Part shown: in pieces, positions 2,635 to 41,887 of the stretch
How positions within the stretch are numbered: position 1 is the stretch's first letter
How the letters are laid out: each line of letters starts with the position of its first letter
NCBI GenBank assembly: GCA_023663815.1
Contig: JAMPGS010000013.1
Span: 1 to 41,887 of the forward strand
DNA length: 41,887 bases
Reading direction: 5' to 3'
From: Clostridium sp.
GTDB taxonomy: Bacteria; Bacillota; Clostridia; Lachnospirales; Lachnospiraceae
The notes under the pieces: model-generated
What the model saw: only the letters and a program-made list of their open reading frames with translations
The model's database searches: none
What the model was told of the DNA's origin: nothing
Translations under genes and position numbers: made by a program

Positions 2635-2670
2635 GCGCGTGCTGTCCCAGCGCAAATTATTTCTGCGCAT

Positions 2671-2711: not shown

Positions 2712-2738
2712 ATTTTGCCAAGTTTTATTTTTATAATT

Positions 2739-5434: not shown

Positions 5435-5447
5435 ATTTTTACCCATT

Positions 5448-6713: not shown

Positions 6714-6721
6714 GGTAAAAA

Positions 6722-10499: not shown

Positions 10500-10535
10500 T
10501 TTTTACTCCCATCACCTATTTTAATTGCCGCCCGT

Positions 10536-11594: not shown

Positions 11595-11701
11595 ACTTTC
11601 CTCATTTCCCGCGGCAAATATCCGCCGCTGTCTATCGCTTCTTTTTTATTTTACAACCGCGGCGCCTATAGCAAAAGAGAATATACTGCCGCCCGCCTTG
11701 C

Positions 11702-11734
11702 AAAAAATGCCCGACTGTTCCTTGCCGAGCATTT
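11702..11734 (-). terminator. Rho-independent terminator after the amidohydrolase gene
   Basis: On the minus strand AAATGCTCG (11734-11726) pairs with CGGGCATTT (11713-11705), nine pairs with one G-U, followed by a run of six T from 11707 to 11702. It closes the spoIID-spoIIQ-amidohydrolase unit before ddl. Confidence 0.8.
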
Positions 11735-26799: not shown

Positions 26800-26894
26800 C
26801 AATGCAATAAAATTGAATTCTTCTTTTCCTAAACTGAAATTCCACCACAAAATTCCACTATATTAAATAGGTAGATACGAAAAATATAAGTATA

Positions 26895-26921
26895 AACCAT
26901 AGCTTAAAGCATGGTTATAAT
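26895..26921 (+). promoter_or_regulatory. Inverted repeat overlapping a -10 element upstream of the lipoprotein remnant
   Basis: AACCAT (26895-26900) and ATGGTT (26911-26916) with a ten-base spacer. The second arm runs directly into TATAAT (26916-26921). No good -35 box lies 17 bases upstream, so an activator- or repressor-controlled promoter is possible. Other parts of 26738-26953 are plain AT-rich sequence. Confidence 0.35.
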
Positions 26922-26953
26922 AGAATTATAGTTTATAGAAACAGGGGAGAGAA

Positions 26954-27209
26954 ATGAAGAAAAACCATTTATTTATAGTTATCATTATATCGGCGGCCTG
27001 TCTCCAGTCAACACCCCTCCCAGCAGCAACAGGCAGTACAACAACAGCAGACCCAGCAAGCAGACCAACAAACACAAAATATGTCAGATTCTGAAATTAA
27101 AAATTTCTTGATGGAAGGGTATAGCAGTGGGTTAAGCCTAGACAACTTACCCAATCATGAATACAATGAAAATGTAGCAAGTGGTATGGAGCATTATCAT
27201 GCGGAGTAA
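26954..27209 (+). pseudogene. Frameshifted Gln-rich small lipoprotein
   Basis: ATG at 26954, after GGGGAGAG, opens MKKNHLFIVIIISAACLQ, a short lipoprotein signal with lipobox SAAC. That frame then reads only a biased tail and stops at 27092. From about 27005 the +1 frame gives a far more protein-like continuation: a Gln-rich stretch with QQQQAVQQQQTQQ, then SDSEIKNFLMEGYSSGLSLDNL and EYNENVASGMEHYHAE, ending at TAA 27207-27209. One base gained or lost near codons 17-24 would rejoin the two parts into a lipoprotein of about 84 residues. Either a recent frameshift or a sequencing error. No family recognised; composition is AT-rich like the genes that follow. Confidence 0.55.
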
Positions 27210-27230
27210 AATAAATATAGGCATTACTGA

Positions 27231-27257
27231 TAGGGATGTTCATTAAGAATATCCCTA
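27231..27257 (+). terminator. Probable terminator after the lipoprotein remnant
   Basis: Stem TAGGGATGTTC (27231-27241) with GAATATCCCTA (27247-27257), eleven pairs including one G-U, loop ATTAA. The tail TTATTATCC is only weakly T-rich, so termination strength is uncertain. Confidence 0.55.
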
Positions 27258-27307
27258 TTATTATCCAAAAATAATTCAAAAATATTTTGAATTTAATAAA
27301 ATCTTAC

Positions 27308-27336
27308 TTGTAATAGTTTAATTTTTACGTTATAAT
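27308..27336 (+). promoter_or_regulatory. Sigma-A type promoter for the retropepsin two-gene unit
   Basis: TTGTAA (27308-27313), exactly 17 bases, then TATAAT (27331-27336), 30 bases before the first start codon. Confidence 0.7.
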
Positions 27337-27366
27337 AATATAAATTTAAAGGTGGTGAAGTGGATA

Positions 27367-27636
27367 ATGAGAAATACAGAGAATAAATATACTATTGGAG
27401 AACTTAAAAAAAATATGAGAGTTAAAGTATCTCAGCTTAATTGTATACTAGATGTTCCTATGATTTTAGTGGATACAAAAGTAATAGCAGACGGTGGAGA
27501 TTTAGAGGGAACTTTAGTTTATTTTGGAAAGGCTGAAACAGAAGAATATGAAGGGTGGTTTCGTCAAACAAAGCCTATAACCCCTATATATTTTAATAGT
27601 ACAGAATTGGGGGATGATGTGGTATATGATGAATAA
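27367..27636 (+). CDS. Small protein of unknown function, partner of the retropepsin-like gene
   Basis: Not recognised. The predicted protein of 89 residues (MRNTENKYTIGELKKNMRV...) is acidic at the C-terminus (ELGDDVVYDE), has no membrane segment or signal, and looks like a compact alpha/beta protein with a KVSQLNCILDVPMILVD strand pair. Start choice: ATG at 27367 lies behind GGTGGTG; in-frame GTG codons at 27352 and 27355 sit too close to that site. It has its own promoter and overlaps the next gene by 8 bases, so the two products are probably made in fixed ratio. It could be a substrate, inhibitor or chaperone of the protease; that is only inference. Confidence 0.7.
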   Translation: MRNTENKYTIGELKKNMRVKVSQLNCILDVPMILVDTKVIADGGDLEGTLVYFGKAETEEYEGWFRQTKPITPIYFNSTELGDDVVYDE

Positions 27637-28216
27637 ATACATTAGAATAGTTATGAAAGAAACAAAAGCAGGCGGCGGTGTAATAAGTACATTAGCATCA
27701 TTCAAATTGAATAACGTAACAGCGCCATTTGAGAATGTAGATGTTAAAATTGATACCGGATGTTCTTTAAGTACAATTCCTTTAGCAAAATTCAAAGCTA
27801 AATTATTATGTAATATGTTAAAACATAATGATATACAAAAAGGTGTAAATTGGGTGACGAGCTATGGGGTTGAAACAGGAGGAGAAAAACACGATATGCC
27901 TGTGACATATGATGAAAAAATGTGTTGCACAGCATTAAAATTCAAACATGGTATTTCAAATTTTGTTATAGGTGGCATTGATATTTCAACTGAAAATATA
28001 TATGTAAGTTATGATAGGAAGTCTAATATACTAATTGGAATGGATATACTCAAAGAGTGGGATATACATATAGGAAAAAGTTTCGTACCGAAAGAAAGAG
28101 GTAAAACAGTATTTATTGCCTGCCCGTATGGCATGTTAAATGATGATTATTTTAAAGAACTTGATAGAACATTTCTTATAGCAACATCGGCATCAGTAGT
28201 TAAATTCTCAAAATAA
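27629..28216 (+). CDS. Retropepsin-like (clan AA) aspartic protease
   Basis: Predicted single-domain aspartic protease of 195 residues. The catalytic motif is KIDTGCSLSTIP with D42-T-G, and the second family hallmark, a hydrophobic strand with Gly-x-Asp, is NILIGMDIL near 133-141, as in 'LLGxDxL' of retroviral and bacterial retropepsin-like proteins. One such domain gives only one catalytic Asp, so activity would need a homodimer. There is no signal peptide or membrane helix, so it should be cytosolic. Start choice: ATG at 27629 lies across the partner's stop; ATG at 27626 and 27614 are alternatives. AT-rich composition and isolation between unrelated operons suggest acquisition by transfer. 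Substrate unknown. Confidence 0.78.
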   Translation: MNKYIRIVMKETKAGGGVISTLASFKLNNVTAPFENVDVKIDTGCSLSTIPLAKFKAKLLCNMLKHNDIQKGVNWVTSYGVETGGEKHDMPVTYDEKMCCTALKFKHGISNFVIGGIDISTENIYVSYDRKSNILIGMDILKEWDIHIGKSFVPKERGKTVFIACPYGMLNDDYFKELDRTFLIATSASVVKFSK

Positions 28217-28288
28217 TGCAGCGTAAGAGTTATATATATTAGCGTCTATAGCTTTTTCTTTTGTTCTCATTCAAATCCTAAAAAACAA

Positions 28289-30520
28289 TTAAAATGCAGC
28301 TGTCCGCATGATAACCTCGTCCTGAAGGTTTTTATTCAATTCCGTAAAGTAAGCGCTGTATCCTGTTACCCGGACAATCAGCCCTGTGTATTTTTCCGGT
28401 GATTTTTGCGCTTCCATTAACTCCTTGGCAGACAAAAAATAAAGCTGTATCTGCATCCCTCCCTCTTTAAAAAAGGTTTGCAAAATTTGAGAAAGAGCAC
28501 GAACGCCATTTTCTCCTGAAAATAAATTTAGAGGAAGTTTTACATCCAAAGTAGCCGCGTTATTGGAAAGGGAATAATCCAATTTGGCAGCAGAACGAAG
28601 CATAGCTGTCAAACCTTGATAATCCCGCCCATGAGTTGGGCTTACTCCATTGGCAAAAGGCTGCCCTTTGCGATGTCCGTCAGGCAAAGCCGCGCAGCTC
28701 TCCCCATTCATAAATTCTAAATAGCTAAATAACCCCGGTCTTAACAAAGTACCGGAAAGATGCCGTCTTTTTTGAATTGCTTCACACAAATACTGCCCTA
28801 ATTCCCGAACGGTATAATCAGCTTCATCGCAGTCATTTCCATATTTAGGAGCCTTATTAATTAATATGGCTTGAAGCGCTTCATCCTCGGCAAAATCAGT
28901 ACAAAGTCCTTTCCACAATCTCTCCATTGACAAAGATTTTTCTTCAAACACCAATTTTTTTATAGCGGTAAAACTATCTGCCGTTTGAATCAAACCGCTC
29001 ATCCGCACCCCTATTGTAGTTAAAGCGGCGCCAAACTGCGTTACGTCTTTCCCTTTTTGAATACACCCCTCTATTAATACCGATTCCAGCGTATGGGGGA
29101 GCATCAAACTGTGGCGCAGCGTTTCATAAAGCAATTGTTGTTCCAACATATCTAAGGCATATTCCACCTGCTTTTGAAATGCTTCCTTCAATTGCTTTAA
29201 ATCCTGAAATTCATTTAAATATCCAGTTTGCGGCCCAAGCTGCTCGCCAGTTGTCATGGAAACGCCGTTATTCATCGCTAATTCAAAGCATTTTCCTATA
29301 TTAACAGCCGCCCCCATGGGGTTCCCACACTCTTTTCCGGGAGCAGCCATCTCGTAGCAGCCAATAAGACCGTAATCCATGGCGTCTTCCCGAACATAAC
29401 CATACTTTTCCAAAGCTTGAATCGAAATTTCATCACAGTAAAACATAGGCCCGCAGTTTCCCTGAGCTGTCCGAACGCACGCCTCAATATATTCTTTTGG
29501 CGCATCGTTCCAGATACGGGCGTTAAGTTTCGGTTGAAAAATCTTTAAACGGCGGGTAGCGTTAAGCATTAAATAAGTTAAAGAATTTACCCCGCTGCCG
29601 CCATTTGAAAGAATTCCTCCCAATGTCAAAGCCCGTCCCGGATCAAGCATTTTAGAGGGATACCGCCAGTTTTTTAACCAAAACAAATCAATCAGTTCCT
29701 GAGCTTCATCCTCGCTTAAAATCCCGCTTTCCAAATCCTTTTGATAAAAAGGATACAAATATTGATCCATTCTTCCATAAGAAAACGCTGACACCCCCGA
29801 CTCAATTTCCAAAAGAAGCTGAGTAAACCATAAAAGCTGCAATGCTTCCCGAAAATTTGCTGCAGGCGATGCGGCAATACGAGAACATACCCTTCCTATT
29901 TCCCGCAATTCTTCGGCGCGGCCAAATTCCACTGTTTCTGCTAAGTGAAATGCTTCCTCCCCGTACCTCTTAATGAAAAGCTCGCTTCCTAAAATGGTTT
30001 CTTTTCCAGAGAGCAAAAAATTACGCTGATTTTCTTCTAAAGCAGAATCCTCCAGCCGCCGGTTTATTTCCTCCTTCAATCCGCCAAAACCAATCCGCAA
30101 TACTTTCTCATAATCTACAATAACATGCCCAAAATTAAGCCCGCCATAAAATACTTCGCTCCATTTATCAAAATTTGGAGTTTGACTTAAACCAGTATGC
30201 TCCAAAAATTCTCTATTTATCTGCGTCAACGCCTGTTCCCGCTCTCTTGGCAATATAGGATCGGGCAGACAACAGCGATTACAGTCCCATTCTTTATAAA
30301 GAAAATGGCCTACGATTATTTCATTATCATAGATGGGGGTGACAACCTGTCCCATACAAAATTTAAAAAATTTTCCCTTGCGATAAAAATAATCTTCTTC
30401 ATATTTCCCTGTTTTTTCCCAAAGAGATAAAAATTCTTCCGTTGAAAATTCCGGTTCTTCTTTTGAGATATTATCCATTACCAGTTGAACGCGTTTCGTT
30501 ACTTTGTCTTTCATTTCCAT
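28289..30520 (-). CDS. Glycyl-radical enzyme, divergent dehydratase-like (PFL2/GD) group
   Basis: Oxygen-sensitive radical enzyme of 743 residues. The glycyl-radical loop near the C-terminus is RVTGYSAYFTEL with G720, followed by NLQDEVIMR. The active-site Cys and Glu lie in DYGLIGCYEMAAPGKE (C388, E390); the CxE pair is the dehydratase/lyase hallmark, as in glycerol dehydratase 'GCVE'. Other family blocks: GHVIVDYEKVL near 133 and QLLWFTQL near 231. The second acid expected about 14 residues after the Cys in glycerol dehydratase is Met here, and the N-terminus is shorter than usual, so this is not one of the well-known types. Its activase precedes it by 54 bases and two glycosidases lie upstream. 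Start ATG at 30520; a TTG at 30529 and ATG at 30514 are alternatives. Confidence 0.88.
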   Translation of the reverse strand: MEMKDKVTKRVQLVMDNISKEEPEFSTEEFLSLWEKTGKYEEDYFYRKGKFFKFCMGQVVTPIYDNEIIVGHFLYKEWDCNRCCLPDPILPREREQALTQINREFLEHTGLSQTPNFDKWSEVFYGGLNFGHVIVDYEKVLRIGFGGLKEEINRRLEDSALEENQRNFLLSGKETILGSELFIKRYGEEAFHLAETVEFGRAEELREIGRVCSRIAASPAANFREALQLLWFTQLLLEIESGVSAFSYGRMDQYLYPFYQKDLESGILSEDEAQELIDLFWLKNWRYPSKMLDPGRALTLGGILSNGGSGVNSLTYLMLNATRRLKIFQPKLNARIWNDAPKEYIEACVRTAQGNCGPMFYCDEISIQALEKYGYVREDAMDYGLIGCYEMAAPGKECGNPMGAAVNIGKCFELAMNNGVSMTTGEQLGPQTGYLNEFQDLKQLKEAFQKQVEYALDMLEQQLLYETLRHSLMLPHTLESVLIEGCIQKGKDVTQFGAALTTIGVRMSGLIQTADSFTAIKKLVFEEKSLSMERLWKGLCTDFAEDEALQAILINKAPKYGNDCDEADYTVRELGQYLCEAIQKRRHLSGTLLRPGLFSYLEFMNGESCAALPDGHRKGQPFANGVSPTHGRDYQGLTAMLRSAAKLDYSLSNNAATLDVKLPLNLFSGENGVRALSQILQTFFKEGGMQIQLYFLSAKELMEAQKSPEKYTGLIVRVTGYSAYFTELNKNLQDEVIMRTAAF

Positions 30521-30574
30521 AAAATACAATATCCCCTCTCCTGTGGCGCACCTGTCATATCTTTATTTTTAAAT

Positions 30575-31501
30575 TTATAATCCCCGGCAGACAACCGGAA
30601 TTGAAAGCCTTTGCTTCATTCTTTCTTCTATCTGCTTCAAAGTTTTAGAATCCGGCGGTTCTAATTCAGCGGCTTTATAGTCCATTCCTAATTGTTGATA
30701 TTTTGACAAAGCGGTTCTATGAAAAGGAAGTAAATCTATCCCTTTTAATTTCGGATACCTGGCTAAAATTTCCGCCATTTTTTCCTGTTCCTCCAAAGAA
30801 GTATTTACCCCCAAAATCAATGGAATCCGAATTCTAATGAAAGCTCCTTCTAAGTACAACCTTTCTAAATTCTCCAAAATAAGCTCATTAGAACTTCCGG
30901 TAACCTGTCGATGTAGTTTAGGGCTTGCCGTTTTTAAATCAAACAGAAATAAATCCGTTTTATTCAACACTTTTTGAAAAGCCTCCCATGGAACATTTCC
31001 AGCAGTATCCACAACTATAGATATTCCCTCAGCCTTAAGCCTTTCCATAACAGAATACAAAGCCTTTTCTTGAAGCAGCGGCTCTCCGCCTGAAAAGGTC
31101 ACTCCTCCGCCGCTGCCCTCATAATAGGCTCTATCCGCCAACAATAACGAAACAAGCTCATCCCTTTCATATAATCGAACAGTAGGAACAATTGCCTGCG
31201 CCGGACACTGCTCCGAGCATTGAACACACTTGCCGCAGGTTTTATGCATCTTTGCATATTCTACCAAATCTTTAGGAGAATATATACTCTTTATACCAGA
31301 AATTTCTTTACAAACCGATAGGCACATTCCACAGTGGATACAGCGGGAAGAAATATATCGAAGCTCACAGCTGGAACGAAGCGTTTCCGGATTATGACAC
31401 CAAAAACACCGCAGAGAACATCCTTTTAAAAAAACAGTAGTTCTAATTCCCGGCCCATCGTGAAAGGATGCCCTTTGAATGTTCGTAATCGACAGCTGCA
31501 T
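30575..31501 (-). CDS. Glycyl-radical enzyme activase (radical SAM, with ferredoxin-like domain)
   Basis: Installs the glycyl radical on its partner using SAM and a [4Fe-4S] cluster. The radical-SAM motif CX3CX2C is GCSLRCFWCHNPE near residue 25. Two further cysteine sets follow, RCIHCGMCLSVC and CGKCVQCSEQC, the extra two-cluster insert of dehydratase-type activases. GGGVTFSGGEPLLQ near 130 is the SAM-binding GGE-type block. Start choice: ATG at 31501 has GGAGG nine bases upstream; the frame from 31522 would contain that site. It lies 30 bases after the DUF6259 gene and 54 bases before the glycyl-radical enzyme, so the pairing is clear. Confidence 0.93.
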   Translation of the reverse strand: MQLSITNIQRASFHDGPGIRTTVFLKGCSLRCFWCHNPETLRSSCELRYISSRCIHCGMCLSVCKEISGIKSIYSPKDLVEYAKMHKTCGKCVQCSEQCPAQAIVPTVRLYERDELVSLLLADRAYYEGSGGGVTFSGGEPLLQEKALYSVMERLKAEGISIVVDTAGNVPWEAFQKVLNKTDLFLFDLKTASPKLHRQVTGSSNELILENLERLYLEGAFIRIRIPLILGVNTSLEEQEKMAEILARYPKLKGIDLLPFHRTALSKYQQLGMDYKAAELEPPDSKTLKQIEERMKQRLSIPVVCRGL

Positions 31502-31531
31502 GAATCTTTTCCTCCACTTCATGCTTCGTTT

Positions 31532-33163
31532 TTATTTCAGATAAAGCTCCTCATACTTCCTCGCATCCTCAAATATCTGCGCCGCCTTTTCCGGGGCTTT
31601 ATCCAGCGTTCCGTCCACAATTGTAATTGTGGGGATTATCCCCTTGCGCAGCGGACAGCGCCAGATAGGATTGTATCCCAGCTCATGGGCTCCCGTGCTT
31701 CCCCTCGACGCATCTCCTAAACACAAATGCCCAAAACCGCGGGCGTAAGTATCGAACATGGGCGGATACGCCTCGTCGTGCCAGTGAAGCGCTCCCTTTG
31801 TGTGCCCGCACTGAAGAAGCGGTATACAGGAGGCTAAACCGTCGTACCAGCCCTCCCCGGCTAAAAGCATATCGGGGTTATACTGCTTAAAGCGTTCCAT
31901 AAGCTTCTTTACGCCCTCGTACAGATAATGGTTCGGGTCGTTCACCCACACCGCCGAAATATCAAAGAAGACGGCGTCAAAACCGTACTTTTCCATAAGA
32001 TTCGTGACCTGTATGTAAAGCCGGTTCTGCCATCTTGGAGCGGCGGGATTTAAATTCCGGTTGGAATTGTGGTCGTAATGTCTGGAACCGTCCCAGTCCA
32101 CGCTTCCCCCGTATACGCTGCCCGCAGGGCCTCTAAATTCAGAGGGAAATCCCCATTCCTCGTAGCCGTCAAAATGAGTTCCCGCTAAATTAATTCCAAA
32201 CATGGGCATAATATGAACACCCAATTCCTTCGCTCCCTCGCACAGCTTTCGGAAGCCTTCCTCTCCGCCCATCCGCTCGTCGGGGGTATAATTTCCATAT
32301 TTCCAGTAATACCGCCCCTCCCAGCCGGGCAAGTAGGCAAGAACCCGGCGGCCCTCCACCTGAGCACAGATTTTTTTCAAATTCTCCAATACCTGATAAT
32401 AGTCGTTAAAAATATATCCCGTCCAGTGCTGACAGTGAATGGAGGCAACTAAAGAAATATCCCTTGCCCAATCGGGCACGTCCGGCCTTGTTTCCCATGG
32501 AACTAGGCCGTAGCTCTGCTCTATATGGAGCCTATGAGGCTCGCAGATACTCTCAAGGCTTTCTCCATACCCAATTTCCCAGACAGGCGTCTGAATCCGG
32601 TTCGTAGTCCTTACGGCCATCTCCTCAAAAATCAATTCCGCGTTTATCCCCTGCTCCGCAGGCACAAAGGCAAACCACTTATCCCGCACAAGATTATCCA
32701 AAGAGCGGAAATAGAGCAGCTTATCCTCCTCATTTTCCATGATAACGAGGGGCGTTCCCACGTCGCGCCAGCCTTCCGGGTATTTTAAAATCAATCCTTC
32801 CTTTGGAATCGGCTTTGGACGCGCATTAATTAAATTGACAATCTGTCCCTTGGAAAGCCCGTGAATAGTCACTTTTATACTGCGAATATCCTCGCTGCTT
32901 CCCTCCATAACAGCAAAGGCCTCCACACGGATACCCTGTCCGCAGACCCAAGCTTTCACGGTAACGCTTCCCGGCGCTTCCATTTGGCCGCCAGCCCACA
33001 AAAGCCCTTTACACCGCACAAAAAGGGTATCTCCTTCCCGCTGAATCTCCATATTTTCCGCCTTGGGAGCGTACACATTACGGAACGTGTAAACCATAAG
33101 GGAAAACTCAAATCCTCCCAGACAAAAATGCGGGGTGGGAAAGCTATAGCTTAAATCTTCCAT
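31532..33163 (-). CDS. DUF6259-type glycoside hydrolase-like protein
   Basis: 543-residue protein with an N-terminal beta-rich region (to about 225) and a C-terminal (beta/alpha)8-barrel-like part, as in DUF6259 proteins and clan GH-D hydrolases. Barrel landmarks are RRVLAYLPGWEGRYYW near 272, VHIMPMFGIN near 316, FDAVFFDISAVW with D401 (probable nucleophile) and DMLLAGEGWYDG with E437. No signal peptide is visible, so it should act on imported sugar in the cytoplasm. Substrate unknown; alpha-galactoside-like linkages are the family-based guess. Its ATG at 33163 overlaps the end of the GH31 gene by 13 bases, with AAAGGA upstream, so translation is coupled. Confidence 0.72.
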   Translation of the reverse strand: MEDLSYSFPTPHFCLGGFEFSLMVYTFRNVYAPKAENMEIQREGDTLFVRCKGLLWAGGQMEAPGSVTVKAWVCGQGIRVEAFAVMEGSSEDIRSIKVTIHGLSKGQIVNLINARPKPIPKEGLILKYPEGWRDVGTPLVIMENEEDKLLYFRSLDNLVRDKWFAFVPAEQGINAELIFEEMAVRTTNRIQTPVWEIGYGESLESICEPHRLHIEQSYGLVPWETRPDVPDWARDISLVASIHCQHWTGYIFNDYYQVLENLKKICAQVEGRRVLAYLPGWEGRYYWKYGNYTPDERMGGEEGFRKLCEGAKELGVHIMPMFGINLAGTHFDGYEEWGFPSEFRGPAGSVYGGSVDWDGSRHYDHNSNRNLNPAAPRWQNRLYIQVTNLMEKYGFDAVFFDISAVWVNDPNHYLYEGVKKLMERFKQYNPDMLLAGEGWYDGLASCIPLLQCGHTKGALHWHDEAYPPMFDTYARGFGHLCLGDASRGSTGAHELGYNPIWRCPLRKGIIPTITIVDGTLDKAPEKAAQIFEDARKYEELYLK

Positions 33164-35454
33164 TCTTCTTTCCTTTCCATCATAGCATCATGTACGGTTA
33201 CTGTATATCTTTTTTCACAGAGACTGCCGCAGGTATGTACATTTTCTCTGGACAATTCCTGTTTTTCCTCATTCCATAAAAGGTTTACAAGGGAATACTC
33301 CCCTTTTTCATAAGCATAGGTTTTCCCATCGTCCGAATAAAGGGGGAAGGATGCGTCTGTGCCGGGATATATGTGAATTTCAATTTCCCGCTGCTCGCTT
33401 TCACTGTTAGAAAGCACTTCCCCCATAGGAAGAAGAGATCCTGCCTTCACGAAAAGCGGAAGGATATCAATGGGCGCTTTTACTGTAATCGTCTGCCCGC
33501 CTGACAGCTTTTCTCCCGTCCAAAAATCATACCAGTCATGTCCAGCCGGAAGATAAACCTTTCTTGAAGCCGCCCCCTGCTCCGTCACAGGAGCTGCTAA
33601 AAGAGATGGGCCAAACATAAATTCATCGCTTATTTCCGCACATTTTTCCTCCGAAAAATCCATCCACAGCCCGCGCATCATAGGCGCGCCCGTCTCCGTC
33701 ACCTGATAGGCCAAAGAATAAATATAAGGCAGCAATTTGTAGCGCAGACGCAAATATTTAGCCAAAATCTTTTCCGCTTCCTCTCCGTAGGACCACAACT
33801 CGTTTCCTTTTCTAGTGCCGTGAGTGCGGAAGGTGGGGCAGAAAATACCAAACTGAAACCAACGGACATACAATTCAGCGTAATTTTTCCGGGTCACAGC
33901 CCTGTTTCCCTCACTGGAGGTCTGCAGCAGCAAAGAACTGTAATCCTCCTGCGCATCCTCGTCAGGCAGCGCCTGCCAGCCGCCGATATCCGAGGACCAA
34001 TAAGCCATGCCGCTGGCGCAGAAATTAAGGGCGGTTGGAATCTGTCTTTTCAGAACATTCCATTCGGGGAAAATGTCCGAGGACCAAAAAGTCGTCCCGT
34101 ATTTTTGCGCGCCAAGGTAGGCGGCTCTGGATAAAATCAGACAGCGGTGGGAAAAGCTGTCCCTGTGCCCCTCGTAAATGCACTTGGTGTGAGTGAGCGG
34201 ATAAATATTGTGAACGCGGGCCCCCATCCCGGCGTATAAAAAAGATTCATGAGGGCTGATATCCGGCTCATCCTCGTCCGTCCAGTAATACTTATATCCC
34301 AAATCTCCGTAATTTTTTTTAATCGTCTCAAAATACCACTTTCCGCACTCCGGGTTGGTTGTGTCAATCAGCGCGCCCCTTTGATCCTCAGGGGTACCGT
34401 AAACCGTATTGTCCTGAGAATCCTTCATAAACCAGCCCCTTTGCTCCAAATAATCGTAATTGTTACTTTCCTTCATAAACCGGGGCCAGCAGGATATCAT
34501 GGTGTCATAACCCATTTCCTCCAGCTTCCGGTTCATCTCCGCGCTGTCCGGCCAGAAAGTAGTATCCAGACTTAAATCTCCTAATACTTTCCAGTGAAAC
34601 CAATCCACCACAAAAATATCGCAGGGATATTCTTTTTCCTTGTAGGTGGACGCTACCTCCATTAATTCCTGCTGGGATGCATATCTCTGCTTACATTGAA
34701 TAAAGCCTAACCCCTTTCTGGGAGGAAGCGGGGTAATTCCCGTAAGAAGCCGGAAGCCCCGGTAAATCTCATCCGTTTTTTCTCCGATAATGATAAAGAA
34801 AGAAATCTCTTCTCCAACCTCAGCCTGCCACAGAGTATGCCCGTCCATACCGGGAAAAACCTTTATGCGGGAGGGATTGTCAAAGACAATACCGTATCCC
34901 CTGTTGGTAATCAAAAAGGGAACAGCCACAATCTCGCCGCCCTTGTGGCTGTAATCGTGCCATAATATCTGCTCCCGGCCTCCAAGATTTAACATACCGT
35001 CCTGATGCTGCCCCAATCCAAAATATTTTTCATTTTCCGAGGCCGAAAAATCTGCCTGAATATGGTAGGTAGATTCACCTAAAATAACGGCGGGCTCTAA
35101 AGCGTAATCCAAAAGCTTAACAAGCTCCTTGCCGGATGCATCCATAAAGGTAATCGCGGTATCCTCCGAAAGAACAGCTTTCAAGCCCGGAATACTAAAA
35201 TACGTCCCGGAACTGTCGTCGGAGCAGGAGGAGGAAATACCTAAATCCGGGCGGGCTTCTATCCCCCACATATCCAGTTCCTTAAATTTGCATGTTTCCT
35301 GTAAATTTTCCGCCTTACTATTAAAAGACGGAGAATATATAAAATGAAGAACATTATCCGCATAGGGAATAAGACGGATAACTCCCTGATTACAGACTGC
35401 CGTCAATCTGTTTTCTTCCATAGCGCAGGAAATGATTTTTTCAGGTTTTACCAT
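33151..35454 (-). CDS. Glycoside hydrolase family 31 (alpha-glucosidase/alpha-xylosidase type)
   Basis: Retaining alpha-glycosidase of 767 residues. Domains in order: N-terminal beta-sandwich (1-235), TIM barrel (about 245-590), C-terminal beta domains. The nucleophile lies in KYYWTDEDEPDIS (D393), matching the 'WxDxxEPD' variant seen in Xyl31A-like enzymes rather than the YicI or YihQ forms. The acid/base block is TTFWSSDIFPEW (D460). Further support: VVDWFHWKVLGD near 283, where the aromatic residues line the -1 site. No signal peptide, so cytoplasmic. The start ATG at 35454 follows AAGGAG. It is 82 bases downstream of the permease genes. Exact sugar (glucose, xylose or galactose) cannot be told. 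Confidence 0.88.
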   Translation of the reverse strand: MVKPEKIISCAMEENRLTAVCNQGVIRLIPYADNVLHFIYSPSFNSKAENLQETCKFKELDMWGIEARPDLGISSSCSDDSSGTYFSIPGLKAVLSEDTAITFMDASGKELVKLLDYALEPAVILGESTYHIQADFSASENEKYFGLGQHQDGMLNLGGREQILWHDYSHKGGEIVAVPFLITNRGYGIVFDNPSRIKVFPGMDGHTLWQAEVGEEISFFIIIGEKTDEIYRGFRLLTGITPLPPRKGLGFIQCKQRYASQQELMEVASTYKEKEYPCDIFVVDWFHWKVLGDLSLDTTFWPDSAEMNRKLEEMGYDTMISCWPRFMKESNNYDYLEQRGWFMKDSQDNTVYGTPEDQRGALIDTTNPECGKWYFETIKKNYGDLGYKYYWTDEDEPDISPHESFLYAGMGARVHNIYPLTHTKCIYEGHRDSFSHRCLILSRAAYLGAQKYGTTFWSSDIFPEWNVLKRQIPTALNFCASGMAYWSSDIGGWQALPDEDAQEDYSSLLLQTSSEGNRAVTRKNYAELYVRWFQFGIFCPTFRTHGTRKGNELWSYGEEAEKILAKYLRLRYKLLPYIYSLAYQVTETGAPMMRGLWMDFSEEKCAEISDEFMFGPSLLAAPVTEQGAASRKVYLPAGHDWYDFWTGEKLSGGQTITVKAPIDILPLFVKAGSLLPMGEVLSNSESEQREIEIHIYPGTDASFPLYSDDGKTYAYEKGEYSLVNLLWNEEKQELSRENVHTCGSLCEKRYTVTVHDAMMERKEEWKI

Positions 35455-35536
35455 AAATTTTTACTCCTTCCGCCGTCCAAACGGCCCATAAAAACTAAAG
35501 CTTATAAAAAACTAAAAGTTAATAACTTTACGAAAA

Positions 35537-36373
35537 TTAACCCTTTACCGCACTGTCAATGGTTCCCTGAATAAAATATTTCTGCAGGAAAATGTAAGCA
35601 AAAATTAAAGGGAAAATTGCAACGCTGGCCGCCGCCGCCGCACCGTTTAAATCCTTCCCGCCTGTTGAGAAATATTGGGAAATTGTCAAGGTCAAAGTGT
35701 ACAGCTTGGGTTTTTGCAGTACATAAAGGCTGTAGGCGTATTCATTCCATATGCTGACCCCGTTTAAAATAATAATCGTTACCGTCACAGGCTTTAGCTG
35801 AGGCAGGATAATAGTAAAAAAGGTCTGCGTGACGCTGCATCCGTCGATGGCGCTTGCTTCATCCAAGGAAACGGGAATCGCCGATATAAAATTGGTGAAC
35901 ATATAAATTGTCATAGGAAGGCCAAAAGCCGCCGATACAAGGATAATCCCCCAAAGCGTGGATATTCCATGTATGGACACCAGTAGGGAGTAAACGCCTA
36001 CTAAAATACTCAAGGAAGGAATCATCATAATGCCCAAAACAATGTTTTTTACCATTGCGTTCCCCTTGCTCCTATTCCGCGCAAGAGGATAAGCGGCAAG
36101 CCCGCCCACCGCTATTTCAACTAAAAGCACGCAGACGGTGATAATTAAAGTATTTTTTACAGCGGAAAGAAGGGTTCCGGCCTCAAAAACTTTCGTATAA
36201 TTACCTGTATAAAATACCTCCGGCAAGGAAAGCAGGGAGGAGGCATCCGTTTTTGTCTTAAAGGACATGACAACTAAAACATACATGGGAAGCAGATGGA
36301 AAATAATGATTGCAATACCCAGCAGATATTTCCACCAATCTCTTTTTAACTCTTTTTTTGTTGCTTTTTTCAT
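35537..36373 (-). CDS. Carbohydrate ABC transporter permease (MalG/UgpE type)
   Basis: Inner-membrane subunit with six predicted helices over 278 residues. The cytoplasmic EAA loop that docks the ATPase is EASAIDGCSVTQTFFTIILPQLKP-like, near residues 186-209 (key residues E, A, G, P). It pairs with the MalF-type permease upstream: the stop and start share one base (TGATG), and AAGGAGG lies inside the end of that gene. No ATPase gene is present, as is common for clostridial sugar importers that use one shared MsmX/UgpC-type ATPase from elsewhere. The substrate is presumably the oligosaccharide or glycoside cut by the following glycosidases. Confidence 0.92.
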   Translation of the reverse strand: MKKATKKELKRDWWKYLLGIAIIIFHLLPMYVLVVMSFKTKTDASSLLSLPEVFYTGNYTKVFEAGTLLSAVKNTLIITVCVLLVEIAVGGLAAYPLARNRSKGNAMVKNIVLGIMMIPSLSILVGVYSLLVSIHGISTLWGIILVSAAFGLPMTIYMFTNFISAIPVSLDEASAIDGCSVTQTFFTIILPQLKPVTVTIIILNGVSIWNEYAYSLYVLQKPKLYTLTLTISQYFSTGGKDLNGAAAAASVAIFPLIFAYIFLQKYFIQGTIDSAVKG

Positions 36374-37242
36374 CACATATCCACCTCCTTTTTATTAAAG
36401 TAAGTTGTAAATATATTAGACACCACCATGATAAACAGGAAAGTAAAAATACCAACGGCGGCGGAATATCCCGCGTTTTGCGCTTTAAAATATTGATTAC
36501 TCACATAGGAAGCAAGGGAGTGGGTGGAAAAGCCCGGTCCTCCGCCCGATAAAGAAATAATCACATCGTATAGCTTTAACCCTCCGATTAAGTTTAGCAC
36601 AACCGCAGAGGAAATTGAGGGAAGAAGCAGCGGAAACGTAATGTGGCGGAAACGCTGCCAAGGGCTTGCCCCGTCAATCTCAGCCGCCTCAAGGTACATA
36701 GCCGGAATATTCTGCAGGCCGGCCATATAAATCACCATAGCAATTCCCACATACTGCCATGAATTCATCAATGTAATAATGATAACTCCCCTGTTGCCGG
36801 AAGCCATCCAGTCGATGGGAGCCGCTCCAAATAAACCGATAAGCTCGTTAAAAATGCCGTGATTATACTGAACAAAAAAATAAATAATATAACCCACAAT
36901 CAAACTGGAAATCATAACCGGCATATAAATAAAAGTACGTACTATCGCGTGCCCCTTAAATTTGGAATTTAAAAAAACGGCATAGGCTAAACCCAACAAA
37001 TTCTGCAAAAGCGTGCTTCCAAAGCCGTAAATAATCGTGTTGCGGAATGAAATCCGAAAATTACTGTCGGTAAATAATTTCAAGTAGTTTTTAAATCCAA
37101 TATATTTATAGTCCTGGGAATATCCGTTCCATTGCGTGAAAGAAATTCTAATCGCCTCGGTCAAGGGACCTACGACAAAAAATAAAATAAGAAGCAATGC
37201 TGGGATATAAAATAAATTCATTCTTGAATATCTTTTTTTCAT
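36373..37242 (-). CDS. Carbohydrate ABC transporter permease (MalF/UgpA type)
   Basis: Membrane subunit of 289 residues with six predicted helices. The EAA loop reads EAAEIDGASPWQRFRHITFP near residues 188-207. N-terminal RYSRMNLFYIPALLLILFF is a typical CUT1 permease opening. It follows the binding-protein gene after 109 bases that contain a strong hairpin, and is coupled to the MalG-type gene. The ribosome site before ATG 37242 is weak (AAAGG at a long spacing), which together with the hairpin should lower permease synthesis relative to the binding protein. Confidence 0.92.
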   Translation of the reverse strand: MKKRYSRMNLFYIPALLLILFFVVGPLTEAIRISFTQWNGYSQDYKYIGFKNYLKLFTDSNFRISFRNTIIYGFGSTLLQNLLGLAYAVFLNSKFKGHAIVRTFIYMPVMISSLIVGYIIYFFVQYNHGIFNELIGLFGAAPIDWMASGNRGVIIITLMNSWQYVGIAMVIYMAGLQNIPAMYLEAAEIDGASPWQRFRHITFPLLLPSISSAVVLNLIGGLKLYDVIISLSGGGPGFSTHSLASYVSNQYFKAQNAGYSAAVGIFTFLFIMVVSNIFTTYFNKKEVDM

Positions 37243-37301
37243 ATGGAATTACCATACCTTTCCATTTAGCTCTGCCAACAAGTCATACCATGATATGAGA
37301 C

Positions 37302-37327
37302 GAGGCGCTGGCAACAGCCGGCGCCTC
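37302..37327 (-). promoter_or_regulatory. Intercistronic hairpin between binding protein and permease genes
   Basis: Eleven-base arms GAGGCGCTGGC (37302-37312) and GCCGGCGCCTC (37317-37327) with a four-base loop. On the minus-strand mRNA one C-A mismatch occurs. No T-run follows on that strand, so it is more likely an mRNA-stabilising or attenuating structure than a full terminator, as often found after binding-protein genes. Confidence 0.6.
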
Positions 37328-37351
37328 TTTAAAATCTTATAGGAATATAAA

Positions 37352-38728
37352 TTACTGAGCTATCTTTTCCTCATAAGCAGTCTTAATTGTCTCAACACAC
37401 TTATCAACTCCCTGTCCGGGATTCATAAACACTTCATTTCCAGATACGCCCATGTCGTTCCACATACCGCTGGGAAGATATACGCGGTCGAAGTAATTAA
37501 CGAAAATTAAATCGTCGCCAAAAGCGTCCATCATGATGTTGAACTCTTTTGTCACATACTCGTCGTCGTTGGATACGCCTTCCATCGCGGGAATCTTACC
37601 ATTGATAGTGGCAATCTGTACGGAAATGTCGTCTCTTGCAAAGAACTCTAAAAGCTTCTTGCACTCTTCAGGATGCTCGCTGTCCTTCCACATACCATAG
37701 CAGGTACCCTCGCCGGAGCTCACATACAGCTTTCCGCCCTCATTGGGAGAAGGAATTGCCATAATGCCAAGCTTTGCATCAGGGTTATATCCAAGAGCCT
37801 GCGTAATCGTATGATTTCCGCTAATTACTATAGCGCCCTCGCCGTTTGCCAAAGCCTGAATAGCGGCGTCGTCGCTTGCGGTAAGAATATCGGAATTGAA
37901 ATATCCTTTTTGCTGCCACCCGTCAAGCATCTCCGCTATAGGAGCCCAATGAGCTGCCCAATCAAAGGAACCGTCTAAAAGAGCGTCGGCCTGATTGTCG
38001 GCAACATCCTCGTTGGTGAGGAAACCGGGAGCCATAACTTCAAACAGGTTTGCAATGTTGTTTACAGATTTTCCGCCTACATATACGGGAACCTTGCCCG
38101 TTGTTAAAATCTTGTCGCAGGCAGCCTCAAAATCAGCCCATGTGCGGATTGTGGTAGCATCCACGCCTGCTTCCTCAAAAATTTCTCTGTTGTAGCAGAT
38201 AGATGCAGGGTCAATGGAAAGAGGAGCTACATATACGTTGCCATCTGGGTCTGTAACCGTCTTTTTAATAGATTCCTTAACTTTGGAAAGCCAAGGCTGG
38301 TCGTTTACTGTTGCAAGGTACTCTGCATATCTTGTGGTGCTCCATCCGTGAGTTTCCCATAAATCCGGCAAATCTCCAGAAGCCATTCTCGTCTTCATAA
38401 CGTTCTCGTAATCATCGCCGGGAGCAATCAGTTCAACGCCGATTCCTGTCTCCTCGGTAAATTGATTCATAAGTACCTGAAGGCTGTCTAACATATCTCC
38501 TGTCCATGAAGTCTCAACCTCCAAAACTACGTCGGACTCTGCAGGGGTTTCCGCCTGAGCGGGAGCTTCGCTCTCATTGTCCGCTTCCGTCGCTGCTTCC
38601 GCCTGAGTATCCGCTGCAGGCGCATCCGACGACTGGCTTCCACTTCCTGAGCCGCATCCTGTAAGTAACGCAGCTACCATGGAAATGCCACAAATTAAAG
38701 CGGTTAATTCTTTTGTGTGCTTTTTCAT
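37352..38728 (-). CDS. Extracellular sugar-binding lipoprotein of an ABC importer
   Basis: Family 1 solute-binding protein (CUT1 type) of 458 residues. The N-terminus KKHTKELTALICGISMV carries a lipoprotein signal ending LLTGCGSGSGS, so the Cys is lipidated. An Ala/Glu-rich flexible linker follows (about 30-70), then the binding fold with LWETHGWSTTRYAEYLATVND and YVAPLSIDPASICYNREIFEEAGVD. Start choice: ATG at 38728 lies eight bases after AAAGGG; GTG at 38737 overlaps that site. First gene of the minus-strand catabolic unit. No clear promoter or CcpA site was found in the 241 bases shared with the divergent kinase gene, so the response regulator may activate it. Confidence 0.92.
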   Translation of the reverse strand: MKKHTKELTALICGISMVAALLTGCGSGSGSQSSDAPAADTQAEAATEADNESEAPAQAETPAESDVVLEVETSWTGDMLDSLQVLMNQFTEETGIGVELIAPGDDYENVMKTRMASGDLPDLWETHGWSTTRYAEYLATVNDQPWLSKVKESIKKTVTDPDGNVYVAPLSIDPASICYNREIFEEAGVDATTIRTWADFEAACDKILTTGKVPVYVGGKSVNNIANLFEVMAPGFLTNEDVADNQADALLDGSFDWAAHWAPIAEMLDGWQQKGYFNSDILTASDDAAIQALANGEGAIVISGNHTITQALGYNPDAKLGIMAIPSPNEGGKLYVSSGEGTCYGMWKDSEHPEECKKLLEFFARDDISVQIATINGKIPAMEGVSNDDEYVTKEFNIMMDAFGDDLIFVNYFDRVYLPSGMWNDMGVSGNEVFMNPGQGVDKCVETIKTAYEEKIAQ

Positions 38729-38903
38729 AATAATCACCCTTTCTTTTTTATTTGCCGCAGACTTTTCTTTACTGCCTGCGTATGTTTTTCCCGGATAAAT
38801 TTCCGATTAAATTTATGATATCACATATTAAAAACCCTTTTATGTCTGTTTTTTTATGCAAATTGTACTTTTTTTTGTGATATAAATATATTTTCTGATT
38901 AAT

Positions 38904-38933
38904 TTGACAAACTATTTTTACTATGCCTATAAT
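38904..38933 (+). promoter_or_regulatory. Strong sigma-A type promoter for the two-component genes
   Basis: Consensus TTGACA (38904-38909), 18 bases, consensus TATAAT (38928-38933), 36 bases before the kinase start. Both boxes are perfect, so the kinase and regulator should be made constitutively while the minus-strand unit is regulated. Confidence 0.85.
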
Positions 38934-38969
38934 TATATACAAAAAATTTTTTCAAATACGGAGGTCTTT

Positions 38970-40745
38970 ATGGATGAACTGAAAAAAAGGCTGAAAGAGC
39001 ATCAATCTCTGCGCTCTTCCTTCATGTTTGCCTTTGTGGTATCCTTTTTAATTCCCTCTTTTATATTGATAATCATTTTATTTTTCTGCTATGCTAGGGT
39101 AACGGTGGCTTCTCAGGAAAAAGAATACCGCAATACAATGAAAATATTATCCTCCCACTTGGTAAACCATATTAACGCCAATTCCGGTTTATCCCTCACC
39201 TATTTGTTTGACACGGAATTTTCCAATATGTACTATTTTTTAAATAGAAAGGATTACACAGAAAATTATGTGGATTACACCCACTATGTTCAGGCCTACA
39301 ATAAAACGCTGAACACCCGGATGACCCTTCTTGGGGACAGTATTATCGGCGTTGGCTTTATTCCCAATAATAAAAATCAGGATTTGCTGTTTTATGTAAA
39401 AAAATACGATAATCTTCAAGAGATAAACAATTACAGCTATAAGGATTCCGATTGGTATAATCAGCTTCAAAATAATAATCAGCTAGTTTTATATGTTCCC
39501 TCGGAAACCTCCACAAAGGAACATACAATTTCCATGATTCGGGCGGTAAAGGATGTGGACAAACGGATTGTAGTAGGCTATGAGATTTTAGATATCTCGC
39601 TGGATTTTATTTTTGAGCCTTTGAAGGATATTTCCATAGGAAGCTATTCCGGCATTTTTCTGGAATCTCCCCAAGGCGAGCTGCTTTTTTCCACAAACGA
39701 TGAACTGATACCGGATTTTAACTCCATGCTGTCCGGTGAAAACAGTAGAAGCCGGCTTATAAGAGGCTATGACTTATACTCCTACACAGATAAAAACTTC
39801 CGCTTTACTTTTTATTATTTATCTTCCAGATATGATTTGTACAACAGCCTCCTGTATGCCACCGGGATAGTATTTTTGTTTTATTTGGCAATGATTTTTA
39901 TGGCGGCGGCAATTTTCCGGCGGACCTCCAATACTATCAGAAATTCTGTGGAACCTGTCCTTACCACTATGGAAAAATACCATGCCGGGGATTCCCATAT
40001 CCAATGCGATACTTCAAAGTGCAGTATCTCGGAAATTGAAACCATTGCAATCAACTTAAATGAAATGATACAAAAAATAAATTTTCATATTGATAAGGAA
40101 TATAAATTTCAAATGGAACAAAAGGCCGCGGAATATCAGGCCCTCCAAGCGGAAATCAACCCGCATTTTTTACACAACGTACTAAATCTTTTGATTGCCC
40201 TAAACCGCTTGGGGGACAGAACCGGACTAGAGCAGTCCATTATCAGCCTTTCCAAAATGTTCCGATATACTTGCGAACACAATTTTAACAGCACGATACA
40301 GCAGGAATTTGATTTTATCAGAAATTACCTGTTTCTTCAAAAAACCCGCTTTGACGAAAGGCTGGAATTTCAAATTTATATAGAGCCGGGATTGGAGGAT
40401 TTTGAAATTCCCAAGCTCTTGGTACAGCCCTTGGTAGAAAATGCAATTGTCCACGGATTGGAACCCTCGGACGGCAGCGAAACCATACAGCTTTCGGCAA
40501 TAACTGCATCGGGCTTTAACGGGGATACCTTCATTATTATTAATGTAATTAATAACGGGCTCCCGTATATTGAGAACAAATCCTATAAGCGGGTGGGGCT
40601 TAAAAGCATTGAGGAACGTCTGGCAATCTTTTCCCCGAATTCCTTTTTTATCATTCGGGGAGGAGTGGACAAGCCTTCAAAATGTACGATTATGATTCCA
40701 CAAAAGAAAGGAGAATCAAATGTTTATACTGATTGCCGACGATGA
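38970..40745 (+). CDS. YesM-like sensor histidine kinase
   Basis: Membrane kinase of 591 residues. It has a first helix (about 18-42), an extracellular sensor region of roughly 240 residues, a second helix (LYATGIVFLFYLAMIFMAAAIF), a HAMP-like linker, then the His_kinase (PF06580) and ATPase parts. The phosphoacceptor is H399 in AEINPHFLHNVLNLL. The ATP-site N-box is LVQPLVENAIVHGLE. This class usually senses extracellular sugars or the loaded binding protein. Start choice: ATG at 38970 has GGAGG five bases upstream; the frame from 38904 would begin inside the promoter. It overlaps the regulator gene by 26 bases. Confidence 0.92.
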   Translation: MDELKKRLKEHQSLRSSFMFAFVVSFLIPSFILIIILFFCYARVTVASQEKEYRNTMKILSSHLVNHINANSGLSLTYLFDTEFSNMYYFLNRKDYTENYVDYTHYVQAYNKTLNTRMTLLGDSIIGVGFIPNNKNQDLLFYVKKYDNLQEINNYSYKDSDWYNQLQNNNQLVLYVPSETSTKEHTISMIRAVKDVDKRIVVGYEILDISLDFIFEPLKDISIGSYSGIFLESPQGELLFSTNDELIPDFNSMLSGENSRSRLIRGYDLYSYTDKNFRFTFYYLSSRYDLYNSLLYATGIVFLFYLAMIFMAAAIFRRTSNTIRNSVEPVLTTMEKYHAGDSHIQCDTSKCSISEIETIAINLNEMIQKINFHIDKEYKFQMEQKAAEYQALQAEINPHFLHNVLNLLIALNRLGDRTGLEQSIISLSKMFRYTCEHNFNSTIQQEFDFIRNYLFLQKTRFDERLEFQIYIEPGLEDFEIPKLLVQPLVENAIVHGLEPSDGSETIQLSAITASGFNGDTFIIINVINNGLPYIENKSYKRVGLKSIEERLAIFSPNSFFIIRGGVDKPSKCTIMIPQKKGESNVYTDCRR

Positions 40746-41887
40746 AAAAATGATACGTTTAAGTCTCCAATCCATGTTGGAAGAACTGTATCCCAACGAG
40801 CACATGTATATCCATGCAATCAACGGAAAAGCGGCGGTTGAGAAGGTAAAAAAGCTTCCGCCTGATTTGGTTTTTCTGGATATACGGATGCCCCTCATGA
40901 ACGGGCTTGAAGTTCTTGAAGCCTGCAAAACCCTTTCACCTAAAACAAAATGGGTTATTTTAAGCGGTTATGCAGAGTTTGAGTATGCCCAAAAAGCTCT
41001 CAATCTCTCGGCTTACTCCTATCTTCTTAAGCCTGTGGATTTAGATACTTTAAAGAAACTGGTGGATGATATCATAGAATTAAAGCAAAAAGAAACGGAA
41101 CAAAATAACAGGTTATTCACCTCTGACATTATCCGCTCCTTCAATATGGCCGACCAGTTAGGCTCCGACGAGGTTGCTTTCCTTCCTTATAAAAAAGGAA
41201 ACTATGTAATTTATCACATTTACATAGATAAGCAGGAAAAAGAACGGCAATACTTTTTAAAAGACGCCTTATTTCGGAATATCAGTCAGTTTTGCGCAGA
41301 CAATCAATCTATAACCTATTCCGCCGTATTTTTTAATACCAACGGGGAGCTGTGCGCAGTTTGTCTGGCACAGGATTCTTCCCATTTAAACTTTTTTATT
41401 AACTCGCAGATTAAAAAGTACCCCAAAGACCCTGTATCCGCCCTTTTTGGAAATGCAGATTTCCTCTCGGAAATTTATAAAATCAGTCAATCCATAGAAG
41501 AAATTTCGGATATTCGGCTTATCTACAACTGCCGAACCGCAACAAATATTCAAGACATTATGAATATTCCTAAATTAAAAGACTATCTTTATTTTTGCGC
41601 TAACATAAACCGCTTCATTCAAAATATGTTAATTGGAAACAGAGAAACCGTCAGGCAGCTTTCCGCTGCCTTTGAGCAGGATAGGAAAATGGCGGATATT
41701 TTTGACAGTACAAACCACGATATATTGTATTTATTTCTGAAAGATATTTTGTCATGTCATTTTCAGGCGGAAACTTTTCAAGATTTTATCAAGGAACTTT
41801 ACCATGGGGCCTCCTTCTTTTCCTCGGAAAAGCCCTTGCACAACTTTGATATCACGGTTATCAAGGATTTTGTATATCAAAACTATG
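40720..41887 (+). CDS. YesN-like response regulator, AraC-type (3' end outside window)
   Basis: The frame is open from ATG 40720, behind AAAGGAG, to the end of the window (389 codons). An N-terminal receiver domain shows the acidic pair D7-D8, the phosphoacceptor D54 in VFLDIRMPLMNG, and a Lys in YLLKPVD. A long middle region of about 250 residues follows. The visible end, FDITVIKDFVYQNY, matches the lead-in helix of the AraC-type DNA-binding domain, which should lie just beyond. It is partner of the upstream kinase and the likely activator of the divergent sugar and glycyl-radical operon. Confidence 0.9.
   Translation, partial: MFILIADDEKMIRLSLQSMLEELYPNEHMYIHAINGKAAVEKVKKLPPDLVFLDIRMPLMNGLEVLEACKTLSPKTKWVILSGYAEFEYAQKALNLSAYSYLLKPVDLDTLKKLVDDIIELKQKETEQNNRLFTSDIIRSFNMADQLGSDEVAFLPYKKGNYVIYHIYIDKQEKERQYFLKDALFRNISQFCADNQSITYSAVFFNTNGELCAVCLAQDSSHLNFFINSQIKKYPKDPVSALFGNADFLSEIYKISQSIEEISDIRLIYNCRTATNIQDIMNIPKLKDYLYFCANINRFIQNMLIGNRETVRQLSAAFEQDRKMADIFDSTNHDILYLFLKDILSCHFQAETFQDFIKELYHGASFFSSEKPLHNFDITVIKDFVYQNY

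Follow-up and report, generated by a model that had tools for sequence, protein, structure and literature searches.

The window analysed here, a stretch of 41,887 nucleotides from a gut bacterium, carries genes for an oxygen-sensitive glycyl-radical enzyme (GRE) and its activase at the end of a sugar import operon. Our best explanation, held with moderate confidence, is that the two form an apparently mobile module of a new GRE subgroup, located behind a self-standing alpha-glycoside operon, and that the module's recurrent partner is an AglA-like glycosidase of family GH4. Gene content across genomes suggests that the GRE works with a different sugar-cleaving enzyme, encoded elsewhere in the genome, and not with the adjacent operon. 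Among the known GRE eliminases, several have each given anaerobes access to a single nutrient (choline, hydroxyproline, isethionate, or anhydrohexitols). Here, an altered pocket together with a recurrent glycosidase partner makes components of alpha-glycosides the place to look for a new gut substrate.

As originally predicted, the genes for the importer, GH31, DUF6259 protein, activase, and GRE form a tight series of seven on the minus strand, with a divergent YesM/YesN-type pair, and the assignments are supported by Pfam (Table 1). From the lipoprotein gene to the GRE gene, the intergenic spacings are 109, -4, 82, -13, 9, and 45 nt. In the regulatory pair, the PF06580 kinase and the receiver are present and the AraC-type output domain would lie beyond the contig end; a dCache_1 match in the histidine kinase (29 bits) falls under its cutoff of 45. 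The GH31 protein retains both catalytic Asp motifs, its DEDEPD and WSSDI aligning to DADEPD and WSGDI of an alpha-xylosidase, and its top four PDB matches are all alpha-xylosidases. The DUF6259 protein barely passes the PF19773 cutoff of 28.7 bits, has no PDB relative better than E 0.014, and is a putative alpha-glycosidase. No microcompartment shell family was matched among the 30 window proteins scanned (open reading frames of at least 120 amino acids, or at least 100 from 25 kb on), no Rfam RNA reached the gathering score between 22000 and 41887, and the window holds no tRNA.

Table 1. Features of the GRE locus, in window coordinates
Feature	Coordinates	Strand	Evidence
Sugar-binding lipoprotein	37352..38737	-	PF13416 + PF01547 (SBP_bac)
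ABC sugar permease 1	36373..37242	-	PF00528 (BPD_transp_1)
ABC sugar permease 2	35537..36376	-	PF00528 (BPD_transp_1)
GH31, alpha-xylosidase-like	33151..35454	-	PF01055, 294 bits
DUF6259 protein, putative alpha-glycosidase	31532..33163	-	PF19773, 29.4 bits, residues 225-406
Radical-SAM GRE activase (Radical_SAM/Fer4)	30575..31522, likely start 31501	-	TIGR02494, 316 bits
GRE, 746 aa, eliminase type, divergent clade	28289..30529	-	PFL-like + Gly_radical; C391-Y-E393, H135, radical G723
YesM-like histidine kinase, divergent	38904..40745	+	PF06580, 74 bits
YesN-like response regulator, truncated by contig end	40720..41886	+	PF00072, 84 bits
Segment present in window, missing from the G006 syntenic locus: activase, GRE, AT-rich tail with ORF 27614	26825..31530		blastn
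2-Hydroxyacid dehydrogenase, first gene downstream of GRE	25778..26737		

The catalytic motifs that had been read from the GRE sequence are in place: C391-Y-E393 and the radical G723 are present, the C-terminal Gly radical domain scores 88 bits (PF01228), and the predicted fold has the GRE barrel. The activase lies far above its TIGR02494 cutoff of 174 bits, and at each of the five GRE loci compared, its gene immediately precedes that of the GRE. A GGAGG site before position 31501, 30 nt past the DUF6259 stop codon, makes this the more likely true start of the activase, rather than 31522. Across a 24-row alignment, C and E of the CXE motif in the Cys loop are invariant; PMC7077986 and PMC8473560 describe the role of this motif in eliminases and that of the His in HypD. 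Judged from its sequence, the GRE retains eliminase hallmarks and is without the glycerol/diol-pocket residues: H281, S282, and D447 of the Clostridium butyricum glycerol dehydratase, which we take to be pocket residues of that enzyme, align to S247, A248, and M405. Glycerol, proposed in the original prediction as a possible substrate, is therefore less likely.

Could the GRE nevertheless be a glycerol or 1,2-propanediol dehydratase of the usual kind, which has moved and acquired its neighbors by chance? The C. butyricum enzyme is its best PDB match by sequence and ranks near the top by fold, and reductases are encoded close to the GRE in three relatives. However, besides the pocket replacements, identity is only 31 to 33%, a second GRE with diol-dehydratase pocket motifs is already present in the window genome (contig C139), and GH4 accompanies the GRE in all five genomes found to have it (see below), all of which makes this explanation distinctly unlikely. 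The enzyme belongs to an uncharacterized, new subgroup. It scores 458 bits for TIGR01774 (PFL2/glycerol dehydratase subfamily; curated cutoff, 678) and 393 for the HypD NCBIfam model (cutoff, 1100). In a GRE tree that omitted L012, both G027 parts, L004, L040, and duplicate loci, the clade itself has support of 100/100. The nodes that attach it to other GREs are weakly supported (84/64, 89/76, and 50/71), and we therefore claim no nearest known family from the tree. Most GRE classes tied in the fold-based PDB listing, from which we infer no absence, and the 143 records matching the GRE in a plasmid collection are all below 60% identity.

Comparison with a genome of the same genus (G006) separates the pair from the operon. 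G006 carries this operon and the genes downstream of it but no activase-GRE pair. Homology ends 1 nt past the DUF6259 stop codon and restarts 4.7 kb further on, with blastn breakpoints at 31531 and 26824 in the window and at 11276 and 11788 in the syntenic locus (L052), where the 511 nt in between have no match to the window. The activase and GRE genes have a GC3 of 37 to 38%, and the five upstream operon genes and the regulators have values of 45 to 57% and 43 to 45%, respectively. Apparently, the pair is a mobile two-gene module. The repeats around the segment are only short two-copy ones, and neither Pfam nor PHROGs gave a match to its ORF 27614.

The GC3 gap between the pair and the regulators or permeases is modest. 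A simple relocation of the pair from contig C159 (see below) to C44 was also considered and is possible, but no activase or GRE remnant is detectable on C159, with locus L010 as the positive control, and the GREs of L010 and G027 are at roughly equal distances from that of the window.

The draft state of the assembly (214 contigs), the low GC3 of the pair, and a relative (L012) whose GRE copy is without an inner part would all be in keeping with a passenger that has no present function, or with a junction that is an assembly fault. Yet the catalytic residues and both reading frames are intact, and since both flanks of the segment are syntenic with G006 on one contig, an assembly fault would need two wrong joins. 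We rate this as the least probable of the explanations considered here.

The original prediction had GH31 and DUF6259 supplying the GRE substrate, proposed a search of related genomes for the same gene set, and named a pair found mostly without these glycosidases as evidence against itself. For GH31 and DUF6259, this is what the search gave: in the stretches compared, neither occurs in any of the four GRE loci of other genomes (L010, L012, G027, and G036), and none of the five other DUF6259 loci (G006, G007, G035, G087, and G289) holds the pair. A GH31 gene of G036 (38% identity) lies about 21 kb from the GRE and adjoins other permeases. It could still be argued that GH31 and DUF6259 release the substrate of a cotranscribed GRE, the insertion having created a new pathway in this lineage. 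The pair sits tight behind DUF6259 and no promoter-like site of at least 10/12 precedes the activase, in keeping with a link to the GH31 operon, and an alpha-glycosidase in either setting, GH31 here and GH4 elsewhere, would permit one aglycone. Given the distinct composition of the pair, the complete operon of G006 without it, and the counts above, this scenario appears unlikely though not negligible, and the proposal that GH31/DUF6259 feeds the GRE is weakened on the gene content compared.

What survives of the predicted link between a glycosidase and the GRE in a glycoside pathway is the idea itself, now with GH4 as the partner. Among 37 genomes of the genus, the GRE (E≤1e-120) occurs in three, namely the window's own (G000), G027, and G036, and an AglA-like GH4 (E≤1e-100) occurs in exactly the same three; the naive chance of this pattern is 1 in 7770 with kinship ignored. 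In a family sample of 397 genomes, for which just part of each genome's weaker candidates was scored, the GRE and GH4 were each found in one, both times the own genome, and a class sample searched for GH4 only, partly overlapping the family sample, likewise gave the own genome alone (1 of 391). G432 and G433, the two remaining GRE genomes, have GH4 as well, at 58% identity. Altogether, GH4 is present in 5/5 GRE genomes and in none of the 34 other genus or 396 other family genomes. The GRE-bearing genomes are all drafts (G036 is 59% complete), and because the related-locus search missed the G036 GRE (47 to 49% identity), further members near 50% may exist. The clade is known from five genomes only, three of one genus. 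The two genes appear discordant in descent, as the G432 GH4 has 82% identity to that of G036 and 58% to that of G027, and its GRE is closer to that of the window (77%) than to that of G036 (47%), so that the two may have been brought together on more than one occasion. Even the closest packing of genes can thus be deceptive, as the genes that look like operon partners also exist where the GRE is absent and the partner that recurs lies on another contig.

The arrangement of GH4 varies among these genomes. In G036, it adjoins the pair (GH4-activase-GRE), and in G027, three genes intervene (GH4-FGGY-Gfo-ADH-activase-GRE), provided that the two G027 contigs join inside the GRE gene. In the window genome, GH4 belongs to a sugar/polyol cluster on contig C159, and the whole contig is without a GRE; of the 16 G027 cluster genes compared, 14 have counterparts there (69 to 94%), the missing two being the activase and the GRE. 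Two observations speak against GH4 as partner: it is on a different contig from the GRE in G000, G432, and G433, which gives no linkage for shared regulation, and an SMP30-FGGY2-ADH2 core is also found in two genomes that have no such GRE, G006 and G029. FGGY2 passes the xylulokinase cutoff and is therefore no pointer to a cyclitol. The CHG motif had suggested an alpha-glucuronidase (PMC8618192 deals with Agu4B), an assignment that was dropped, since the GH4 has CHGH as in AglA (1obb), versus CHGV in 1vjt and 3u95. The earlier remark that no aldehyde or alcohol dehydrogenase is adjacent holds for the window operon, where no alcohol or aldehyde dehydrogenase was found within it or immediately flanking it, but not for the wider set: in G027, the gene immediately before the activase encodes a zinc alcohol dehydrogenase, an aldo/keto reductase is the next gene downstream of the GRE in L012, an Fe-alcohol dehydrogenase is the fourth gene downstream in G036, and alcohol dehydrogenase genes are present in the C159 cluster.

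With GH4 as the partner, the likely role of the GRE is dehydration of a polyol or cyclitol derived from an alpha-glycoside. The glycoside would be imported and then cut by GH4, and the freed polyol- or cyclitol-like part would reach the GRE directly or after conversion by the FGGY kinases and the IolG-like and zinc dehydrogenases whose genes are close to GH4. After the activase has put the radical on G723, C391 would abstract a hydrogen, and E393, tuned by H135, may support 1,2-elimination of water; the carbonyl product could be reduced or degraded further by the dehydrogenases and the KDPG-type aldolase that the cluster encodes. The window genome has these partners on C159, with the pair positioned for read-through with the GH31 operon. 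It is tempting to speculate, if with somewhat less confidence than in the module itself, that this is an undescribed radical branch of glycoside catabolism, in which a GRE subgroup dehydrates a cyclitol or polyol aglycone (or its oxidized form) freed by an NAD-dependent GH4, the genes having met repeatedly by gene exchange and the module having been newly coupled to a GH31/DUF6259 import operon in the window lineage.

Among the matches listed, a literature search covering few subscription papers returned no pathway with this gene set, but parts of it resemble known systems. YbiW/PflD of radical-mediated glycolysis are GREs of sugar catabolism that act on a ring polyol, as our GRE may, and according to PMC12441222, they cleave 1,5-anhydrohexitol 6-phosphates, with 1,5-anhydrofructose as a possible GH31 side product. 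Together with the sugar context at several GRE loci, this could mean that a 1,5-anhydrohexitol, free or phosphorylated, is the substrate of our GRE, the anhydro sugar stemming from side reactions of GH31 or GH4. However, identity to YbiW/PflD is 29 to 31%, the HD of PflD aligns to P404-M405, and PflD is flanked by PTS genes, whereas ABC importer genes flank the pairs of the window and G036; we regard this as improbable, a shade more so than the dehydratase alternative. From the B12-independent glycerol/1,2-propanediol dehydratases, the GRE differs in the S/A/M pocket and in the clade-specific residues Y697, D662, and T722. With HypD it shares the CxE motif, the His (HypD H160, here H135), and an AF/AY after the acid position, but identity is 30% and the catalytic Asp278 of HypD aligns to S247, at variance with HypD membership. 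The GH4 partner, finally, shares the CHGH motif with the Thermotoga AglA-type alpha-glucosidase but scores 440 against the AglA NCBIfam cutoff of 650 and, unlike AglA, is tied to a GRE.

The window does contain the gene set of the original prediction, with seven genes on the minus strand and a regulator pair running divergently from them. The glycyl-radical enzyme (GRE) combines a PFL-like with a Gly radical domain and features the motif C391-Y-E393 and the radical site G723, while its radical-SAM activase scores above the TIGR02494 cut-off. Since only 9 nt separate DUF6259 from the activase (30 nt if a better activase start is used) and no promoter-like site scoring at least 10 of 12 was found ahead of the activase, operon transcription may plausibly read through into the activase-GRE pair. 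However, the proposal that GH31 and DUF6259 release the compound converted by the GRE was weakened by comparison with other genomes. Neither gene occurred in the compared stretches of the four other GRE loci (positive control, the syntenic locus L052 of genome G006), and a GH31 of genome G036 (38%) lies ~21 kb from its GRE. Conversely, the pair was absent from the compared stretches of all five other DUF6259 loci (positive control, GRE locus L010), and whole-genome searches did not find this GRE in these five genomes. Thus, the gene neighbourhood is real, but the link of GH31/DUF6259 to the GRE is unconserved.

G006, from the same genus, contains the window locus, including its kinase and regulator parts (SBP, 84% identity; permeases, 94 and 93%; GH31, 75%; DUF6259, 83%), and shares the downstream 2-hydroxyacid dehydrogenase (89%), amidohydrolase (92%), and S-adenosylhomocysteine hydrolase (96%). 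DNA homology stops at window position 31531, 1 base beyond the DUF6259 stop codon, and restarts at 26824, with 511 nt in G006 in between that lack a match to the window. Given these breakpoints, the absence of such a GRE from G006 (whole-genome search, E<=1e-120), and a GC3 of 37-38% in activase and GRE versus 45-57% in the five upstream operon genes and 43-45% in the regulators, the pair is part of an extra ~4.7-kb segment of the window or was cleanly lost from G006. The segment also holds two small ORFs, one of which has no match in Pfam or PHROGs and bears a DTG motif reminiscent of retropepsin-like aspartyl proteases.

The GRE clade is rare. It was found in 3 of 37 genus genomes, namely the window's own, G027 (two contig-end parts, 73 and 76% identical to the window GRE), and G036 (49%), and in 1 of 397 family-sample genomes, again the window's own. 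In genome_contigs, a collection with a single genome per species (84,980 species), a pattern scan returned 31 loci, with L010 in G432 (77%), L012 in G433 (76%), and L011, part of the G027 gene, as clade members and all others at most 39% identical. The activase precedes the GRE in 5/5 GRE loci. The window's genome encodes a second GRE (L002, contig C139; 843 aa, 30% identity) with diol-dehydratase pocket motifs.

Coordinates of the radical pair and of further features in the window and compared loci
Sequence	Position	Strand	Feature
Window	28289-30529	-	GRE
Window	30575-31522	-	Radical-SAM activase
Window	27614-28216	+	AT-rich opposite-strand ORF with DTG motif
Window	27352-27636	+	AT-rich opposite-strand ORF
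Window	5751-8236	+	BsoBI-like restriction endonuclease, then DNA methylase
Window	2739-5497	-	DUF6044 protein (590 bits) adjoining family 2 glycosyltransferase
L052 (G006)	693-3968		YesM-like kinase, split; 426-aa opposite-strand ORF between parts
L012 (G433)	10001-11716		GRE read as 571 aa without inner part of clade's protein; real loss or assembly gap
L013 (Candidatus Aerophobetes)	3-1988 and 3135-5543		Tandem GREs, 39 and 38% to window GRE, then ORFs resembling, by eye, ABC transport genes

The recurrent partner of the GRE is GH4, an AglA-like alpha-glycosidase. Within the genus it is present in exactly the three GRE genomes (of 37; E<=1e-100), and both in the family sample (1 of 397) and among 391 class genomes only the window's own genome carries it. 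G432 and G433 also encode GH4 (58%), on contigs that differ in length from those of the GRE and with no GRE in the compared stretches around it, so that GH4 is found in 5/5 GRE genomes. The gene order in G036 is GH4-activase-GRE-SBP-permease-permease-Fe-ADH-GH88-Gfo-ADH-SMP30. In G027, one contig ends after GH4-FGGY-Gfo-ADH-activase-GRE (first part), and another reads GRE (second part)-SMP30-FGGY-ADH-GPI-like cupin-shikimate-DH-like-PTE-KDPG aldolase-2HADH; the two probably join within the GRE gene.

A cluster of the G027 type lies on contig C159 of the window's genome: DeoR (89%), GH4 (94%), FGGY (75%), Gfo (87%), and ADH (80%); another ADH, importer, Gfo, GH88, and cupin (69%); SMP30 (89%), FGGY (89%), ADH (83%), and shikimate-DH-like (86%); and PTE (71%), KDPG aldolase (83%), 2HADH (78%), and Gfo (77%). 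Across the entire contig, neither activase, GRE, nor remnants of them were found. 14 of the 16 compared G027 cluster genes are on C159, and the missing two are the pair, which is located after the GH31 operon on contig C44, that of the window. The SMP30 part is not GRE specific, since SMP30 is encoded not just by the three GRE genomes of the genus but by five of its 37 genomes. In the compared loci (L062, L063, L064, L011, and L041), the SMP30-FGGY-ADH core lies near importer genes in the window's genome, G006, G029, and G036 and adjoins the GRE in G027, with GH88-like genes nearby in four of these five genomes.

From established GRE chemistry, the activase would generate the G723 radical, C391 would take a hydrogen from an OH-bearing carbon, and elimination of the adjacent leaving group, most simply water, would yield a carbonyl product. 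Such a product is consistent with the reductases encoded close to the GRE, an ADH in G027, an Fe-ADH in G036, and an AKR in L012. A cyclitol or other polyol derived from an alpha-glycoside is tentatively suggested as the substrate by three proteins that each score below their cut-off: GH4 as the partner enzyme, an IolG-like Gfo (293 bits versus 355), and a Tdh/IolM-like ADH. By contrast, the FGGY kinase encoded with SMP30 reaches the xylulokinase cut-off and would rather fit a pentulose. Taken together, the sequence comparisons support a new GRE subgroup that would act in glycoside catabolism.

The three genomes from the genus count for less because they are related; nonetheless, GH4 and GRE differ in their histories: the GH4 of G432 is close to that of G036 (82%), whereas its GRE is close to that of the window (77%, versus 47% to G036). 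The GH4-GRE link is conserved across the five known genomes, and all five GH4 proteins share the CHGH motif that is also found in AglA.
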